64,000 bases of DNA from Bacteroidota bacterium (GTDB lineage: Bacteria > Bacteroidota > Bacteroidia > Bacteroidales > JAAUTT01), in the NCBI GenBank assembly GCA_030706405.1, contig JAUZOO010000010.1:124001-188000 (forward strand), in the 5' to 3' direction. Position 1 is the first letter of the stretch; each line of letters begins with the position of its first letter. The notes beneath the pieces are model-generated. The model did not search any database. It was not told where the DNA came from and worked only from the letters and a program-made list of their open reading frames with translations. The position numbers and the translations under genes were made by a program. This document shows positions 11,919 through 19,313 of this stretch, one piece after another.

Positions 11919-12401
11919 ATGAAAAAGCAAAGAGTATTTTTATTGCTGGTATTATCTTTCTTTACCGGCAAATTATTTTCTCAAACAATAGAAAGTTTTG
12001 AAGAAACAGCTAAAAAGAGCAATGCTATATTGTTCGAAGATACGGCCCTTAAGGTGAAACCAAAATTGGCTGATAGAAAGGTTTATGACAAGTGGATTAA
12101 GGATAATAACAAGAAGTATCAGGATTTTTCGCAGATTGCCATGGGCGAGCCCATTTCTGTTACTGTAGCAATTCTTCTTGATGAGCAGGGAAATATTGTT
12201 GCTTCAGCAATATCAAAGAGTGTAGGTTTTGGGTTTGACGAAGAAGCCTTGCGTCTGATAAAAGAAAATCCTAATAGATGGAATCCCGGAATGCTAAAAG
12301 GGAAGCCTGTTCCTGTTGAACTTCGGTATCAGATTGATTTTATAAATAATAGCAATTTTTTTGCCACAAAAAATAATAAAAAGATTTTCAAACAATATTA
12401 G
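11919..12401 (+). CDS. Small exported protein with TonB C-terminal-like domain
   Basis: Signal peptide MKKQRVFLLLVLSFFTGKLFSQ; DEQGNIVASAISKSVGFGFDEEALRLIKENPNRWNPGMLKGKPVPVELRYQIDF matches the TonB C-terminal pattern. Confidence 0.65.
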   Translation: MKKQRVFLLLVLSFFTGKLFSQTIESFEETAKKSNAILFEDTALKVKPKLADRKVYDKWIKDNNKKYQDFSQIAMGEPISVTVAILLDEQGNIVASAISKSVGFGFDEEALRLIKENPNRWNPGMLKGKPVPVELRYQIDFINNSNFFATKNNKKIFKQY

Positions 12402-12524
12402 TCATCTTCTATAAAGAAGGGAGCAAATGAGGAGACGTATCTTATTTTTTATTTAACGAACCTCTTGTTTTTTTAAAAATTAATTTCTTCTTTTGCTGAC
12501 ATAAATCATTTTCGAAACAAACAA

Positions 12525-12596
12525 ATGAACAATATATCTCTGAATAGAAATTGGTGGTGGCGTCTACTTTATTCCATAAGCCGGAATGAGGAGTAG
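12525..12596 (+). CDS. trpL: trp operon leader peptide, 23 aa: MNNISLNRNWWWRLLYSISRNEE
   Basis: Manually translated; three consecutive Trp codons (12552-12560), stop at 12594-12596, terminator at 12632-12660, trpE at 12702. Not in the supplied ORF track (too short). Confidence 0.8.
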   Translation: MNNISLNRNWWWRLLYSISRNEE

Positions 12597-12631
12597 CCCC
12601 GTGTTTCTATCCCAGAAAAGATAAAATACAG

Positions 12632-12660
12632 AAGCTCGCCGATACCGGCGGGCTTTTTTT
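12632..12660 (+). terminator. Attenuator terminator of the trp operon
   Basis: AAGCTCGCCG-ATAC-CGGCGGGCTT 10-bp stem (one G-U) continuing into TTTTTTT. Confidence 0.8.
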
Positions 12661-12701
12661 GTTTTTGCACTAAAAATTTAATAACGATAATAATTTGCAT
12701 T

Positions 12702-14105
12702 ATGGCGTTCAAATTTAAAACCAACACTAAAAAGGTACTTGCCGACACCCTTACTCCGGTGAGCATCTATCTGAAATTACGCGATATGTATCCCGGAGCC
12801 TTTTTACTCGAAAGCTCCGACTATCATGGCAATGAAAACAGCTTTTCGTTCGTTTGCCTTAATCCGATTGCTTCCATTGTAGTTGACAATTATCAGGTTA
12901 CATGTTCTTATCCTGATAATTCAACCACTAGCCAAGCCATCGCCAAACCCGCCGATTTCTCGGCAGCCATGAAGACCTTCATGCAAAGTTTCGACACCTG
13001 CGAGAATGGCGAGAAACTTCCTGTAAACGGTTTGTTTGGCTATTCTTCATACGATGCCGTTAAATACTTCGAAACCCTTAAACTTTCGGCTCCGCAAAAC
13101 GAAGCTTACAAGATTCCCGATGTCTGTTATCAGTACTTTAAGTATGTGATTGCCATCAACCACTTTAAGAACGTTATGTACATTATCGAAAATCTTACTG
13201 AAGGAGAAAATAGCGAGTGCGACCGCATTGAGCGACTGCTTTATACCATGAATCTTACGACAGGTCGTTTTTCGTGTGCTGACACCGAAACGTCCAACAT
13301 CACCGATGAGGAATATCGGCAGATGGTAACCTGCGGAAAAGAAGCCTGCTATCGTGGTAATGTTTTTCAGATTGTGCTGGCCCGTCAGTTTGCTCGTCAA
13401 TACAATGGCGATGACTTTAATGTGTATCGGGCTTTACGCTCTATAAATCCTTCTCCATACTTGTTTTATTTCGATTTTAAAGATTACCGTATCTTTGGTT
13501 CTTCGCCAGAGGTTCAGATAAAGATTAAAGACGGGAAAGCTAATATTAACCCTATTGCCGGAACTGCCAAACGCACCGGCGATGACGAAAAGGACAAGGA
13601 ATTGGCCCGTCAGCTTGCCGCCGATCCCAAGGAAAACGCAGAACACGTGATGCTCGTCGATTTGGCCCGTAACGATCTGAGCCGCTATGGAACAGGGGTT
13701 AGCGTCGAGAGTTTCCGCGAAGTGCAGTTTTATTCGCACGTCCTTCACCTGGTATCGACCGTATCGGCAAAACTTAACGATCAGTCGGGGGCGGTGGATA
13801 TGTACATGGCAACATTCCCGGCTGGTACACTTTCGGGGGCACCTAAGTATAAAGCCATGGAACTGATTGACGGCATCGAAAACCAATCGCGTGGATATTA
13901 TGGTGGAGCCATCGGATACATCGGATTCGACGGGACTTTGAACCATGCCATCATGATACGCACGTTCCTAAGCAAGAACCACACGCTTTATTGTCAGGCC
14001 GGAGCAGGGATTGTGGCTGCATCAAACGAAGAGAGCGAACTTCAGGAGGTAAATAACAAACTCGGAGCTTTGAAAAAAGCTTTTGAACTGGCTAAAGAGC
14101 TTTAA
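12702..14105 (+). CDS. trpE: Anthranilate synthase component I
   Basis: Chorismate-binding motifs INPIAGTAKRTG, AEHVMLVDLARNDL, PAGTLSGAPKYKAMELID. Confidence 0.95.
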   Translation: MAFKFKTNTKKVLADTLTPVSIYLKLRDMYPGAFLLESSDYHGNENSFSFVCLNPIASIVVDNYQVTCSYPDNSTTSQAIAKPADFSAAMKTFMQSFDTCENGEKLPVNGLFGYSSYDAVKYFETLKLSAPQNEAYKIPDVCYQYFKYVIAINHFKNVMYIIENLTEGENSECDRIERLLYTMNLTTGRFSCADTETSNITDEEYRQMVTCGKEACYRGNVFQIVLARQFARQYNGDDFNVYRALRSINPSPYLFYFDFKDYRIFGSSPEVQIKIKDGKANINPIAGTAKRTGDDEKDKELARQLAADPKENAEHVMLVDLARNDLSRYGTGVSVESFREVQFYSHVLHLVSTVSAKLNDQSGAVDMYMATFPAGTLSGAPKYKAMELIDGIENQSRGYYGGAIGYIGFDGTLNHAIMIRTFLSKNHTLYCQAGAGIVAASNEESELQEVNNKLGALKKAFELAKEL

Positions 14106-14155: not shown

Positions 14156-14731
14156 ATGAAAAATAAGATATTAGTCATCGACAATTACGATTCGTTTGTA
14201 TATAACCTTGTTCATTATATTGAAAAAATTACGGGCGAGAGACCCGATGTTTACCGCAATGACGAGATAAGCATCGAAGATGTTGGCAAGTACGATAAAA
14301 TTCTGTTATCGCCCGGTCCCGGTGTGCCTTCGGAAGCAGGAATTATTCTCGATGTAATTCGAAAATATTCCCCAACGCACAGTATCTTTGGTGTTTGTCT
14401 CGGTCATCAGGCTATTGGCGAAGCTTTCGGCGGACAGCTGACAAACCTTGATACGGTTTATCACGGAATCGCTTCCAAAATACAGGTGTTGACTCCCGGC
14501 GACCCGCTCTATAAAGGTATTCCTGCAGAGTTCAACGTGGGGCGTTACCATTCGTGGGTTGTGTCGCGTGAAGGTTTACCCGATTGCTTTACCATCACCA
14601 CCGAAGACGAAAGCGGTATGATTATGGGCATTAGTCATAAACAATACAACGTCCGCGGGGTGCAGTTTCATCCCGAATCAGTTCTCACCGAACATGGAAT
14701 GAAGATGGTTGAAAACTGGTTAGCAATTTGA
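14156..14731 (+). CDS. trpG: Anthranilate synthase component II (glutamine amidotransferase)
   Basis: LLSPGPGVPSEAGI, FGVCLGHQAIGEAFGG, VQFHPESVLTEHG. Confidence 0.95.
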   Translation: MKNKILVIDNYDSFVYNLVHYIEKITGERPDVYRNDEISIEDVGKYDKILLSPGPGVPSEAGIILDVIRKYSPTHSIFGVCLGHQAIGEAFGGQLTNLDTVYHGIASKIQVLTPGDPLYKGIPAEFNVGRYHSWVVSREGLPDCFTITTEDESGMIMGISHKQYNVRGVQFHPESVLTEHGMKMVENWLAI

Positions 14732-14822
14732 TAGTTTGCCAATAAATTAATGTGACAATTTGCCAATGGGCAATGAGTTATTTGGAGTCAGTCTTGGCTC
14801 TAGGTTCTAATTAATTAAAACA

Positions 14823-15812
14823 ATGAAAGAAACCCTTTCTTATTTATTTGAAGGCAATATTTTGTCTCAACAAAACGCTAAAGATGTGCTTACCGATATT
14901 GCCTCCGGCAAATTCTCGGAAGCTGAAATTGCTTCATTTTTTACCGTTTACCGAATGCGTAAGATTACGGCGCAGGAAATACTTGGTTTCCGTGAGGCCA
15001 TGATTAGCGTTGCGGTTCCCGTTGAGATGGACGGATTCACAACTATCGACCTTTGCGGTACTGGTGGCGATGGGAAGAACACGTTTAACATCTCTACCCT
15101 TTCGTCTTTTGTGTTGGCCGGGGCTGGTGCAAAAGTGGTGAAACACGGCAACTACGGGCTTTCATCACCTTGTGGGTCGTCCAATATTATGGAATATTTC
15201 GGGTATCAATTTAGCACCGATAACAATAAGTTAAGGAAGGAAATGGAAGAATGCGGCATCTGCTACCTTCATGCACCTATCTTCCATCCGGCTATGAAGT
15301 ATGTGGCTCCGGTACGCAAAGCTTTAAAGGTGAAAACTTTTTTTAATATGCTGGGACCCATGACTAATCCGGCCCGTCCGCAGGCGCAGTTTGTGGGTGT
15401 TTTCAGCACCGAGGTACAAAAAATGTATGCCGAAGTATTGCAACTCGCTGGCATTCGCCATGGGATAGTACATAGCTTGGATGGTTATGATGAGATTTCG
15501 TTAACCGGAGAATTTTGTGTTGCCGGTCATGGCAAGGAGACAACGTACACTCCCGAATCGCTGGGATTAATACGCGTGAATCCGGGGGAACTTCACGGAG
15601 GTGATACTATCGACGAAGCTGCTGACATTTTTCTTTCCGTACTCGAAGGCAAGGGAACTAAAGTGCAAACGGAAGTTGTGGTTGCCAATTCGGCCTTTGC
15701 CCTGTCGTGCTATTTCCCCGATAAATCTATCCCCGACTGCATTGCCATGGCCCGGGAATCATTATCTAGTGGTAAAGCGTTGCAAGTGTTTAAAAAATTA
15801 TTGAATAAGTAA
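14823..15812 (+). CDS. trpD: Anthranilate phosphoribosyltransferase
   Basis: DLCGTGGDGKNTFNISTLSSFVLAGAGAKVVKHGN, LGPMTNPARP. Confidence 0.95.
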   Translation: MKETLSYLFEGNILSQQNAKDVLTDIASGKFSEAEIASFFTVYRMRKITAQEILGFREAMISVAVPVEMDGFTTIDLCGTGGDGKNTFNISTLSSFVLAGAGAKVVKHGNYGLSSPCGSSNIMEYFGYQFSTDNNKLRKEMEECGICYLHAPIFHPAMKYVAPVRKALKVKTFFNMLGPMTNPARPQAQFVGVFSTEVQKMYAEVLQLAGIRHGIVHSLDGYDEISLTGEFCVAGHGKETTYTPESLGLIRVNPGELHGGDTIDEAADIFLSVLEGKGTKVQTEVVVANSAFALSCYFPDKSIPDCIAMARESLSSGKALQVFKKLLNK

Positions 15813-15815
15813 GCC

Positions 15816-16598
15816 ATGACTATTCTCGACAAAATTATTGCCGAAAAATATAACGAAGTAAAAGTCCAAAAGGCGATTGTTTCAATTTCAGAACTTGAAA
15901 AGAAAGACGCATTTAAGCGTACCTGCATTTCGCTGAAAGAATCGCTTACGCATCCCGGCTCGTCGGGCATCATTGCGGAGTTTAAACGTAAATCGCCGTC
16001 CAAAGGCTTTATCAACAGTAATGTTGCTGTTGAAGATGTGACCTCCGGTTACGCCAAAGCTGGTGCTGCCGGGCTTTCCGTACTTACCGACCGTCAGTTT
16101 TTTGGGGGCTCTTTGGTTGATTTGGTCGCAGCCCGTGGTGTTAACTCCATTCCAATTTTGCGTAAAGATTTTATGGTTGACGAATACCAGATTATCGAGG
16201 CTAAAGCCATGGGTGCCGACGTCATCCTGCTCATTGCCGCCTCGCTCGACCTTCCGTTGATTAAAAGGCTGGCATCTTGCGCTAAATCGCTTGGATTGGA
16301 AATTCTCTTCGAAATTCACGCTCAGGAAGAACTCGAAAAAATCGTGGATGAGGTGGACATGGTGGGTGTAAATAACCGTAATCTCAAGGATTTCCATGTC
16401 GATTTGGAGCATTCGTTAAAATTGGCGGCACAGCTTCCCGATAAATTCGTGAAAGTGTCGGAAAGCGGCATCGACAATCCCGACACCATTAAATACCTGC
16501 GTTCGTTCGGGTTTAAAGGTTTTCTGATCGGCGAAAACTTTATGAAACAACCTAACCCGGGCTATGCCTGCGGGGAGTTTATAAAACAGATGATTTAG
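15816..16598 (+). CDS. trpC: Indole-3-glycerol phosphate synthase
   Basis: IIAEFKRKSPSKGFIN, LRKDFMVDEYQI, VGVNNRNLKDFHVD, VSESGI. Confidence 0.95.
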   Translation: MTILDKIIAEKYNEVKVQKAIVSISELEKKDAFKRTCISLKESLTHPGSSGIIAEFKRKSPSKGFINSNVAVEDVTSGYAKAGAAGLSVLTDRQFFGGSLVDLVAARGVNSIPILRKDFMVDEYQIIEAKAMGADVILLIAASLDLPLIKRLASCAKSLGLEILFEIHAQEELEKIVDEVDMVGVNNRNLKDFHVDLEHSLKLAAQLPDKFVKVSESGIDNPDTIKYLRSFGFKGFLIGENFMKQPNPGYACGEFIKQMI

Positions 16599-16662
16599 CT
16601 GTAAACCGTTAGCCTTTGGCTATTAGCGAAAGACCAACGGCTTACAGCCAATAGCTTATACC

Positions 16663-17271
16663 ATGCTTATAAAAGTTTGCGGAATGCGCGATAGCGCTAA
16701 TATACAACAGGTAGCCGCCTTGCAGCCCGACTGGATGGGTTTTATCTTTTATCCCAAATCGAAGCGTTATGTGGGAAAGGAATTTGTTCATCCATGTGTG
16801 CCCGGCATAAAAACTGTGGCGGTATTTGTGGACGAAGAGCCCGGCAAAGTTCGCGACATTATTAACGATAACAGGTTCGACTTTGCCCAGCTGCACGGCG
16901 ACGAGTCTCCGGTTTATTGTCAAAAAATAAAAGAATACGGAATCCATGTCATTAAAGCCTTTGGAATTCATGAAGGATTTAACTGGCAAAAATTGAAACA
17001 ATATCAGGATGTTTGCGATTATTTTCTGTTCGACACCAGTACTGCTGATTATGGTGGGAGTGGGCAGAAGTTTGACTGGAGTATCCTCGGAAATTACAGG
17101 TTATCGAAACCTTTCCTGCTAAGCGGAGGTATTGGTCCCGATGATGCGGCTGAAATTCAAACCATAAAACATTCTGCTTTGGCCGGAATTGATCTGAACA
17201 GCAAGTTCGAAACTGCCCCGGCATTAAAAGATGTAGAGAAATTGAGAATATTTTTAACAGAGTTGAGATAG
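16663..17271 (+). CDS. trpF: Phosphoribosylanthranilate isomerase
   Basis: MLIKVCGMRDSANIQQV, FAQLHGDESP, LLSGGIGPDDA, AGIDLNSKFE. Confidence 0.93.
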   Translation: MLIKVCGMRDSANIQQVAALQPDWMGFIFYPKSKRYVGKEFVHPCVPGIKTVAVFVDEEPGKVRDIINDNRFDFAQLHGDESPVYCQKIKEYGIHVIKAFGIHEGFNWQKLKQYQDVCDYFLFDTSTADYGGSGQKFDWSILGNYRLSKPFLLSGGIGPDDAAEIQTIKHSALAGIDLNSKFETAPALKDVEKLRIFLTELR

Positions 17272-17302
17272 CTAATTCCCAACGCCCAATTACACATAAG
17301 AT

Positions 17303-18484
17303 ATGAAACATTCACCTGACGAAAGAGGTTTTTTCGGAAAGTTCGGCGGAGCTTACATCCCCGAAATGCTTCAGGCTAATATTGAAGAGCTGAGAGAAAA
17401 CTATCTCCGGATAATGAACAGCGAAAACTTTCAGCAACAGTTTCACAAACTGATGAAAGATTACGTGGGACGGCCTTCGCCCCTGTATTATGCTTCGCGT
17501 CTTTCGCAACATTACGGAACCAATATTTACCTAAAACGAGAAGACCTGAACCATACCGGTTCGCATAAAGTTAACAACACCATCGGACAGATTTTGCTGG
17601 CCAAGGAACTGGGCAAGAGCCGCATCATTGCCGAAACCGGCGCCGGGCAACATGGTGTGGCAACCGCTACCGTTTGTGCACTGATGGGCCTGCAATGTGT
17701 GGTTTACATGGGCGAAACCGATGTGAAACGTCAGATGCCCAATGTACTTCGCATGCAAATGCTTGGAGCTACCGTTGTACCTGCCATGAGCGGTAACCGT
17801 ACCCTCAAGGATGCCGGTAACGAAGCGCTTCGCGATTGGATCAGCAACCCGGTTGACACCTATTACCTGATAGGTTCGGTGGTTGGCCCGCATCCGTTCC
17901 CCGACATGGTGGCGCGTTTCCAGTCCATCATTTCCGAAGAGATACGTTGGCAGTTAAAAGAGCAGACCGGCAACGGACTGCCCGATTATGTGCTGGCTTG
18001 TATTGGCGGCGGAAGCAATGCTATGGGCGCTTTCTATCATTTTATTGAAGACCCTTCTGTTAAATTGGTGGCTGTTGAAGCGGCTGGTTTAGGCGTAGAT
18101 TCCGGCGAAACTGCGGCATCCATTGCCAAGGGTACCGAGGGGGTTATTCAGGGAGCCCGTACCATGCTCATGCAAACCGACGATGGACAAATTATTGAGC
18201 CGTATTCCATTTCAGCTGGTCTCGACTATCCCGGCATTGGCCCTGCACACGCCCATTTGCACGATATTGGACGCGAAATTGTGATTGACGCTACCGATAA
18301 GGAAGCGCTCGATGCGGCCTTTCAGCTTACCCGCCTCGAAGGCATTATCCCGGCACTCGAATCGGCTCACGCACTGGCCGGATTGGCTAAAATGAAGTTT
18401 AAATCCGACGATGTGGTGGTGGTCAATATATCCGGCCGCGGCGACAAGGATATGGACACTTATATTAAGTATATGAGTAAATAG
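17303..18484 (+). CDS. trpB: Tryptophan synthase beta subunit
   Basis: GRPSPLYYASRLSQHYGTNIYLKREDLNHTGSHKVNNTIGQ, ETGAGQHGVATAT, GGGSNAMG. Confidence 0.97.
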   Translation: MKHSPDERGFFGKFGGAYIPEMLQANIEELRENYLRIMNSENFQQQFHKLMKDYVGRPSPLYYASRLSQHYGTNIYLKREDLNHTGSHKVNNTIGQILLAKELGKSRIIAETGAGQHGVATATVCALMGLQCVVYMGETDVKRQMPNVLRMQMLGATVVPAMSGNRTLKDAGNEALRDWISNPVDTYYLIGSVVGPHPFPDMVARFQSIISEEIRWQLKEQTGNGLPDYVLACIGGGSNAMGAFYHFIEDPSVKLVAVEAAGLGVDSGETAASIAKGTEGVIQGARTMLMQTDDGQIIEPYSISAGLDYPGIGPAHAHLHDIGREIVIDATDKEALDAAFQLTRLEGIIPALESAHALAGLAKMKFKSDDVVVVNISGRGDKDMDTYIKYMSK

Positions 18485-18539
18485 AACCAAGTATTAAGAA
18501 CCTAGAGCAAGATTGCCTTGAATTTAAAAAAAGAAAACA

Positions 18540-19313
18540 ATGAACCGCATAGATACATTATTTCAGCAGAAGAAAAATAACGTCCTGTCCGTTTACTTTA
18601 CGGCAGGACATCCGGAGCTGAACAGCACGGCTTCTATTTTGGGCGAACTGGAAGCTTCGGGCGTGGAGATGGTCGAAATAGGGATGCCTTTTTCCGATCC
18701 TTTGGCCGATGGTCCGGTAATTCAGGATAGCAGCTCTAAAGCATTAAAAAATGGGATGACCCTCAAACTGCTGTTCGACCAGTTAAAAGATATTCGCAAA
18801 GATGTTAAGATCCCGTTACTGCTCATGGGGTATATTAACCCGGTGCTTCAGTACGGTGTCGAAAACTTTTGTAAGAAATGTCGCGAAACCGGCATCGATG
18901 GCGTAATACTTCCCGACCTTCCGATGGATATTTATGAAGAATCGTTCCGTAAATGTTTTGAGGACAACGGCGTTCACTTCATCTTTTTAATAACCCCGCA
19001 AACCAGCGACGAGCGCATCCGAATGATCGACAGCATCAGCGGAGGATTTATCTACATGGTATCGTCGGCAGCAACAACCGGGGCGAAGAGCACCATTGCC
19101 GAAAAGCAGATCGAATATTTTAACCGGGTTAAAGCCCTTAACCTGAAAAATCCGTTGGTGATCGGTTTTGGCATCTCTAATCACGAGACTTTTGCCAGTG
19201 CCTGTCGGTATGCCAACGGCGCCATCATTGGCAGTGCTTTTGTAAAAATGCTCGATAAAGCCACCGATATGAAATCGGATATCCGGAAATTTGTGAAGGA
19301 AGTTTTGGGATAA
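18540..19313 (+). CDS. trpA: Tryptophan synthase alpha subunit
   Basis: VEIGMPFSDPLADGPVIQDSSSKALKNG, GVILPDLPMD, GFGISNHE. Confidence 0.96.
   Translation: MNRIDTLFQQKKNNVLSVYFTAGHPELNSTASILGELEASGVEMVEIGMPFSDPLADGPVIQDSSSKALKNGMTLKLLFDQLKDIRKDVKIPLLLMGYINPVLQYGVENFCKKCRETGIDGVILPDLPMDIYEESFRKCFEDNGVHFIFLITPQTSDERIRMIDSISGGFIYMVSSAATTGAKSTIAEKQIEYFNRVKALNLKNPLVIGFGISNHETFASACRYANGAIIGSAFVKMLDKATDMKSDIRKFVKEVLG

Follow-up and report, generated by a model that had tools for sequence, protein, structure and literature searches.

The trp operon of the window (the whole 64,000-nt stretch of Bacteroidota DNA analysed here) is preceded by an element that, on its sequence, we take to be real and very probably functional. 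From sequence and modelled folding we read it with high confidence as a ribosome-mediated (leader-peptide) transcription attenuator of that operon. The observations in hand are its anatomy, its conservation, the species-specific complementarity of its 1:2 and 2:3 helices, its spacing and a simulated flip of the fold; from these we infer the transcription start, translation of the leader, stalling in vivo, termination and the response to tryptophan. The kind of element is already known. The additions are a mapped antiterminator, a spacing rule and a range that has been under-counted.

The original prediction placed a 23-aa ORF with three consecutive Trp codons 105 nt before trpE, with AAGCCGG at 12578-12584 and CCGGC at 12645-12649, and all of this agrees base for base with the sequence (TAG stop of the leader at 12594-12596, ATG of trpE at 12702; Table 1). 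It also called a terminator followed by a T-run, which is present, although the stem measures 11 bp and not the 10 bp proposed: positions 12631-12641 pair with 12646-12656 around the loop 12642-12645 (-18.9 kcal/mol), with T7 at 12654-12660. This is the sole terminator-like site in 12300-12800, where shuffles lead one to expect 0.3, and the fold of 12500-12710 has z = -3.9. Within the 1:2 hairpin the Trp codons lie in the 5' arm and the antiterminator strand near the loop. The gene upstream ends 123 nt before the leader. Downstream the operon order is trpEGDCFBA, the genes after trpE filling 14156..19313. The trpE product scored 436.8 bits against TIGR00564, below the curated cut-off of 517.7, so the gene is named by best match and operon context. 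The window holds two marks of the mechanistic class, a short ORF with consecutive Trp codons upstream of a trp operon and, following it, an intrinsic terminator ahead of the first structural gene; a further mark, an exclusive antiterminator that is free only during a stall at the Trp codons, was found by comparison and simulation, and is weak in same-genus relatives.

Table 1. Features of the trp leader region and operon, in window positions.
Feature	Positions	Strand	Basis or remark
Upstream gene	11919-12401		weak TonB C-terminal match
Sub-threshold match to Rfam RF01692 Bacteroid-trp	12505..12640	+	whole model 1-131
Match to covariance model R1	12513..12658	+	67.4 bits
trp leader peptide ORF, 23 aa, MNNISLNRNWWWRLLYSISRNEE*	12525..12596	+	W-rich leader in 98/109 Bacteroidota loci
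1:2 (pause / anti-antiterminator) hairpin	12535..12623	+	folds and species-specific pairing of arms
Three regulatory Trp codons, UGG UGG UGG	12552..12560	+	sequence read; runs kept in relatives
Antiterminator 5' strand (region 2), GCCGGAATGAGGAGT	12580..12594	+	duplex of -16.2 kcal/mol with 12634-12649
Intrinsic terminator, 11-bp stem, 4-nt loop, then T7	12631..12660	+	folding; stem conservation in Bacteroidales
Antiterminator 3' strand (region 3)	12634..12649	+	terminator upper 5' arm, loop and top of 3' arm
trpE, first gene of operon	12702..14105	+	NCBIfam TIGR00564 trpE_most, best match
trpG	14156-14731	+	trpG/pabA subfamily, above curated cut-off
trpD	14823-15812	+	above curated cut-off
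trpC	15816-16598	+	above curated cut-off
trpF	16663-17271	+	best match
trpB	17303-18484	+	above curated cut-off
trpA	18540-19313	+	above curated cut-off

In the mechanism that we propose, transcription would begin upstream of the leader, and a ribosome would translate the leader behind RNA polymerase. With charged tRNA-Trp scarce, the ribosome would stall on UGG UGG UGG, its footprint opening the 1:2 hairpin and ending before GCCGGAAUGAGGAGU (12580-12594); this freed strand would pair with 12634-12649 before the 3' arm of the terminator is complete, allowing read-through into trpEGDCFBA. With tryptophan plentiful, the ribosome would reach the stop (12594-12596) and cover 12580-12594, leaving the 11-bp terminator to form and transcription to end at the U-run. 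With no ribosome at all, the 1:2 hairpin would sequester 12580-12594, and the terminator would be expected to form as well.

Loci for comparison were gathered by a TrpE search of related genomes and of a genome collection (n = 109). A W-rich leader and a terminator precede the first trp gene in 98 of them (strand-corrected), a count that, since the loci were picked by TrpE similarity, is not a phylum-wide frequency. The first gene behind the element is trpE, or trpB in trpB-first operons such as that of Paludibacter, and some loci that seemingly lack the element are trpB-first operons carrying it before trpB. Two leader-terminator elements are present in 14 of the 98 loci. Among the 11 loci with no valid match, L028, L053 and L062 break off upstream, and L029 and L030 are weak matches that are probably not TrpE. 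L102, which RF01692 matches, has a WWW leader whose start codon is other than ATG, and L017 has its trpB-upstream stretch outside the sequence compared. L026, L071, L092 and L096 remain with no valid leader-terminator match. L071 (Microscillaceae) has a trp-type terminator before trpE, and a Trp-run leader was not found there by the criteria used. The original prediction depended on Trp run and terminator being kept in close relatives, and both are kept in all three readable same-genus relatives (L002, L003, L007; a fourth is cut off).

The Trp codons of 108 distinct elements form a run of three in 80 cases, of two in 17 and of four in two, and are separated in nine. Across 30 aligned Bacteroidales, 96.3% of terminator-stem cells are paired, and both partners vary in 9 of the 12 pairs (0/500 shuffles). 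Outside the Trp run the leader peptides have little in common and vary in length, which argues against a TnaC-type sensor, in which the nascent peptide, not codon decoding, would stall the ribosome at abundant free tryptophan. Such a sensor would likewise be a Trp-rich peptide ahead of a terminator, but by stalling at high tryptophan it would induce a biosynthetic operon at the wrong moment, and we regard this explanation as very unlikely.

Conservation also decides whether the hairpin does no more than end the transcript of the upstream gene (11919-12401) and the WWW ORF is a chance frame. Intergenic terminators are common, and the TGGTGGTGG run alone is not rare, occurring 70 times in the 4.93-Mb genome against 53 for the reversed pattern. 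However, 230 nt separate the hairpin from the upstream stop codon, an interval that holds the leader, and across the phylum trpE or trpB is accompanied by leader, spacing and hairpin as a set. Moreover, the covariance model R1, which we built from 30 Bacteroidales relatives with the window and its genus excluded, has the window element as its sole match in the source genome (67.4 bits, E = 1.8e-12), and it did not match any of seven other TGGTGGTGG sites from that genome. The conservation refutes a mere upstream-gene terminator in practice, and we give that idea hardly any credence next to an attenuator.

Taken by itself, the GCCGG:CCGGC helix of the window is at chance level (1536 of 5000 shuffles reach its score, and 205 of 5000 do so at the right position too), so its weight comes from cross-species comparison. 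We used an alignment-free swap test, in which in-silico hybridisation matched the leader segment that follows the Trp codons with the terminator apex of its own or of another species. The stop-proximal leader bound its own apex at -14.75 kcal/mol versus -11.41 kcal/mol for swapped apices (z -8.6, 0/20000), and 37 dissimilar elements gave -13.8 versus -9.6 kcal/mol (z -8.9, 0/20000). Control segments upstream and downstream had no own-partner effect in this test. The 1:2 arms also pair species-specifically, with z of -12.4 for 108 elements and -7.8 for the 37 dissimilar ones. Matched changes between the antiterminator strands of different species include UCGUGA/UCACGA, ACCGUGAG/CUCACGGU, GCUAUGUUAAGCG/CGCUUAACAUAGC and GUGAACAG/CUGUUCAC. 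An early window duplex of -22 kcal/mol was dropped, as it had been inflated by U-run pairing, and the target was from then on the apex only.

At fixed alignment columns, 75% of antiterminator cells are paired versus 26-48% when the helix is slid, and covariation there has no excess over shuffles, probably because the position of the helix shifts among species; the claim of a 2:3 antiterminator accordingly rests on the swap test. The covariation check put forward with the original prediction thus came out positive for the terminator and negative for the antiterminator at fixed columns; for the antiterminator, the alignment-free swapping of partners supplied the positive result. Comparison of ~110 elements supports both the mechanism first proposed and its GCCGG antiterminator strand past the Trp codons.

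The antiterminator keeps its distance from the Trp codons. In a sliding scan, the 2:3 signal is strongest (z -16) for the segment 12-26 nt beyond the last Trp codon. The distance from that codon to the start of the helix is 18 nt (IQR 17-19), and the standard deviation of the start is 3.0 nt measured from this codon versus 9.0 nt from the stop codon; region 2 of the window, beginning 19 nt past the last Trp codon, fits this spacing. The leading edge of a stalled ribosome lies ~10 nt past the A-site codon. A ribosome with the last Trp codon in its A site would leave the antiterminator strand free, and one a few codons beyond would cover it. The tight spacing is as expected if the leading edge of the stalled ribosome sets the position, and the rule can be seen as a direct footprint of that ribosome.

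This spacing also bears on direct sensing of Trp-tRNA or tryptophan by the RNA, as in a T-box or riboswitch, with the small ORF incidental. Riboswitches too look like a structured leader followed by a terminator, but the conserved core here is the UGG run, from which the position of the antiterminator is fixed. T-box or riboswitch families gave no match at threshold in the window, nor any among the sub-threshold matches in the region. Direct sensing is accordingly a highly improbable account of the element.

To simulate switching by a ribosome, we deleted from the window RNA the part that the ribosome would cover, ended the transcript at 12649-12651 and folded what was left. The probability of the antiterminator was 0.93-0.97 with the ribosome stalled at UGG3, and ~0 with no ribosome or with the ribosome at the stop; the original prediction had anticipated the outcomes for the stalled ribosome and for the one at the stop. 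Stalls at UGG1 or UGG2 gave mostly a terminator-sparing hairpin, with the terminator still favoured, so the clean flip came from UGG3 only, and the outcome in the window depends on the footprint edge assumed. Averaged over 108 elements, the terminator stem had a probability of 0.05-0.09 with a stalled ribosome, 0.89 with one at the stop and 0.80 when untranslated; 99 of the 108, the window included, switched. After transcription of the full terminator, this fold is favoured at equilibrium whatever the state, which means that switching, as in E. coli, has to be kinetic.

The same-genus L002, L003 and L007 did not switch in simulation, and their 2:3 helix is weak or not detectable (L007 -12.3, L003 -8.5, L002 -4.6 kcal/mol). 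In L002 and L003 the WWW leader and terminator are present and a convincing 2:3 antiterminator helix was not found. That combination favours a balance of transcription and translation, in which a ribosome anywhere in the leader would suffice and the 2:3 helix has been lost or replaced in the genus. In the window, however, the helix occupies the canonical position and makes the simulated fold flip, and we think such a balance unlikely to be the explanation; attenuation through a stall at the Trp codons is the reading that we prefer.

The Bacteroidetes -7 promoter motif is TAnnTTTG. Of 108 elements, 44 carry it in the 80 nt ahead of the leader, where shuffles give 6.7 ± 2.6, and most of these motifs stand 21-29 nt from the leader ATG. 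In the window, neither this 80-nt stretch nor the gap from leader to trpE contains a perfect TAnnTTTG. The original prediction named a transcription start downstream of 12596 as a result that would count against it; such a start is not indicated, as the promoter-like -7 motifs of relatives lie upstream of the leader.

Several other leader-terminator arrangements were noticed. In the window's own genome, hisG has upstream (L136; G000:C12, reverse complement) tandem His leaders, MNKHFAYGHHGIHHSMNCR then MTFNHNIEHHHGHLNHCD, each with a terminator; tandem His pairs are also found in L140 and L148. Upstream of ilvD (L138; G000:C3) is a branched-chain (Ile/Leu/Val) leader, MSIYSRIISLVVVVLVKRLPG, then a terminator, and similar leaders occur in most relatives scanned. 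Upstream of PDT (pheA; L137; G000:C20, reverse complement) is a Phe/Tyr-rich leader, ...NFFGFWFYFFYTLKCFRD, then a terminator, a type kept in the same-genus L182, L183 and L184. These His, Phe and Ilv arrangements of the source genome are kept in many relatives. Their 2:3 complementarity is species-specific, at z of -7.1 (His), -5.0 (Phe) and -5.3 (Ilv) in small samples selected for having leader and terminator. Leader-family Rfam models gave no match at threshold on the His, Ilv and Phe elements (18 loci scanned).

Trp leaders can also come in series. Prolixibacteraceae-type loci (L035, L036, L038-L045, L050, L052) have a second W-rich leader upstream of the WWW attenuator, at about -400 to -230 from trpE, with its own terminator. 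Its peptides are IWLPWWGLLT, IWLWWWGLLT or IWLWWGNTFLC, and its antiterminator has matched changes such as TTAGGAG/CTCCTAA, CAGGAG/CTCCTG and GTAAGGAG/CTTCTTAC. L046 and L047 keep the second-leader sequence, its terminator being absent. Two WWW leaders and two terminators stand in series before trpE in L006 and L094.

We think it reasonably likely that Bacteroidota control their amino-acid operons (Trp, His, Ile/Leu/Val and Phe) by a general programme of leader-peptide attenuation, with own terminators and kept in relatives, in which some lineages stack two attenuators, RF01692 is the flavobacterial Trp part, and the Trp antiterminator lies one ribosome footprint past the last regulatory codon. 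Our literature searches did not find a paper on His, Ilv or Phe leader attenuators of Bacteroidetes; the survey by Lopatovskaya et al. (2010, Mol Biol 44:128; cited in PMC4833913), outside the coverage of these searches, reportedly treats attenuation across bacteria and may include Bacteroidetes. From the sequences compared, trp attenuation appears near-universal among the sampled Bacteroidota trp loci and not a proteobacterial speciality, which would imply that transcription and translation in Bacteroidota are coupled closely enough for attenuation.

The original prediction suggested that a Bacteroidetes case would be worth documenting, but the kind is already on record. Bacteroid-trp (RF01692, 'Bacteroidete tryptophan peptide leader RNA') is listed in Bacteroidetes as cis-regulatory and not a riboswitch (Weinberg et al. 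2010, PMC2864571), and it has been read as a Trp attenuator in Flavobacterium psychrophilum (PMC6414381). It resembles the window element in standing before the trp operon, in the same phylum, with the same order of features. Against the window RF01692 scored 40.2 bits (E 0.002), under its gathering cut-off of 49 and so short of formal membership. It matches the WWW-leader element in 17 of 20 Flavobacteriales loci tested and, at the curated cut-off, in none of 20 Bacteroidales loci tested; it is over the cut-off in 15 of 197 Bacteroidota genomes, all in one family. R1 matches 40 of the 197 genomes, the same-genus copies, and ten RF01692-found loci (L111-L120) at 65-85 bits, placing these under one shared model with the window. 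Since R1 joins the window and the RF01692-found loci, they form one family for which the curated model is too narrow; with ~100 species compared, the Rfam catalogue misses most Bacteroidales copies. The RF01692 model spans leader and 1:2 hairpin and stops within the 5' arm of the terminator, and hence is without the terminator stem and the antiterminator. The catalogued family now gains a mapped antiterminator and a spacing rule relative to the Trp codons.

Further afield, the actinobacterial trp leaders (Seliverstov et al. 2005, PMC1262725) are a case of amino-acid genes outside Proteobacteria being controlled by leader-peptide attenuation, in a different phylum and likened to ours by mechanism. 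The trpL of E. coli and Salmonella (RF00513, Trp_leader) works alike, with tandem Trp codons in 1:2, a 2:3 antiterminator and a 3:4 terminator. RF00513 scored 20.7 bits against the window, below its cut-off of 41, so that the likeness to trpL is in mode of action and not membership by sequence. Unlike in trpL, region 2 in the window forms pairs with the terminator apex on both arms and in the loop.
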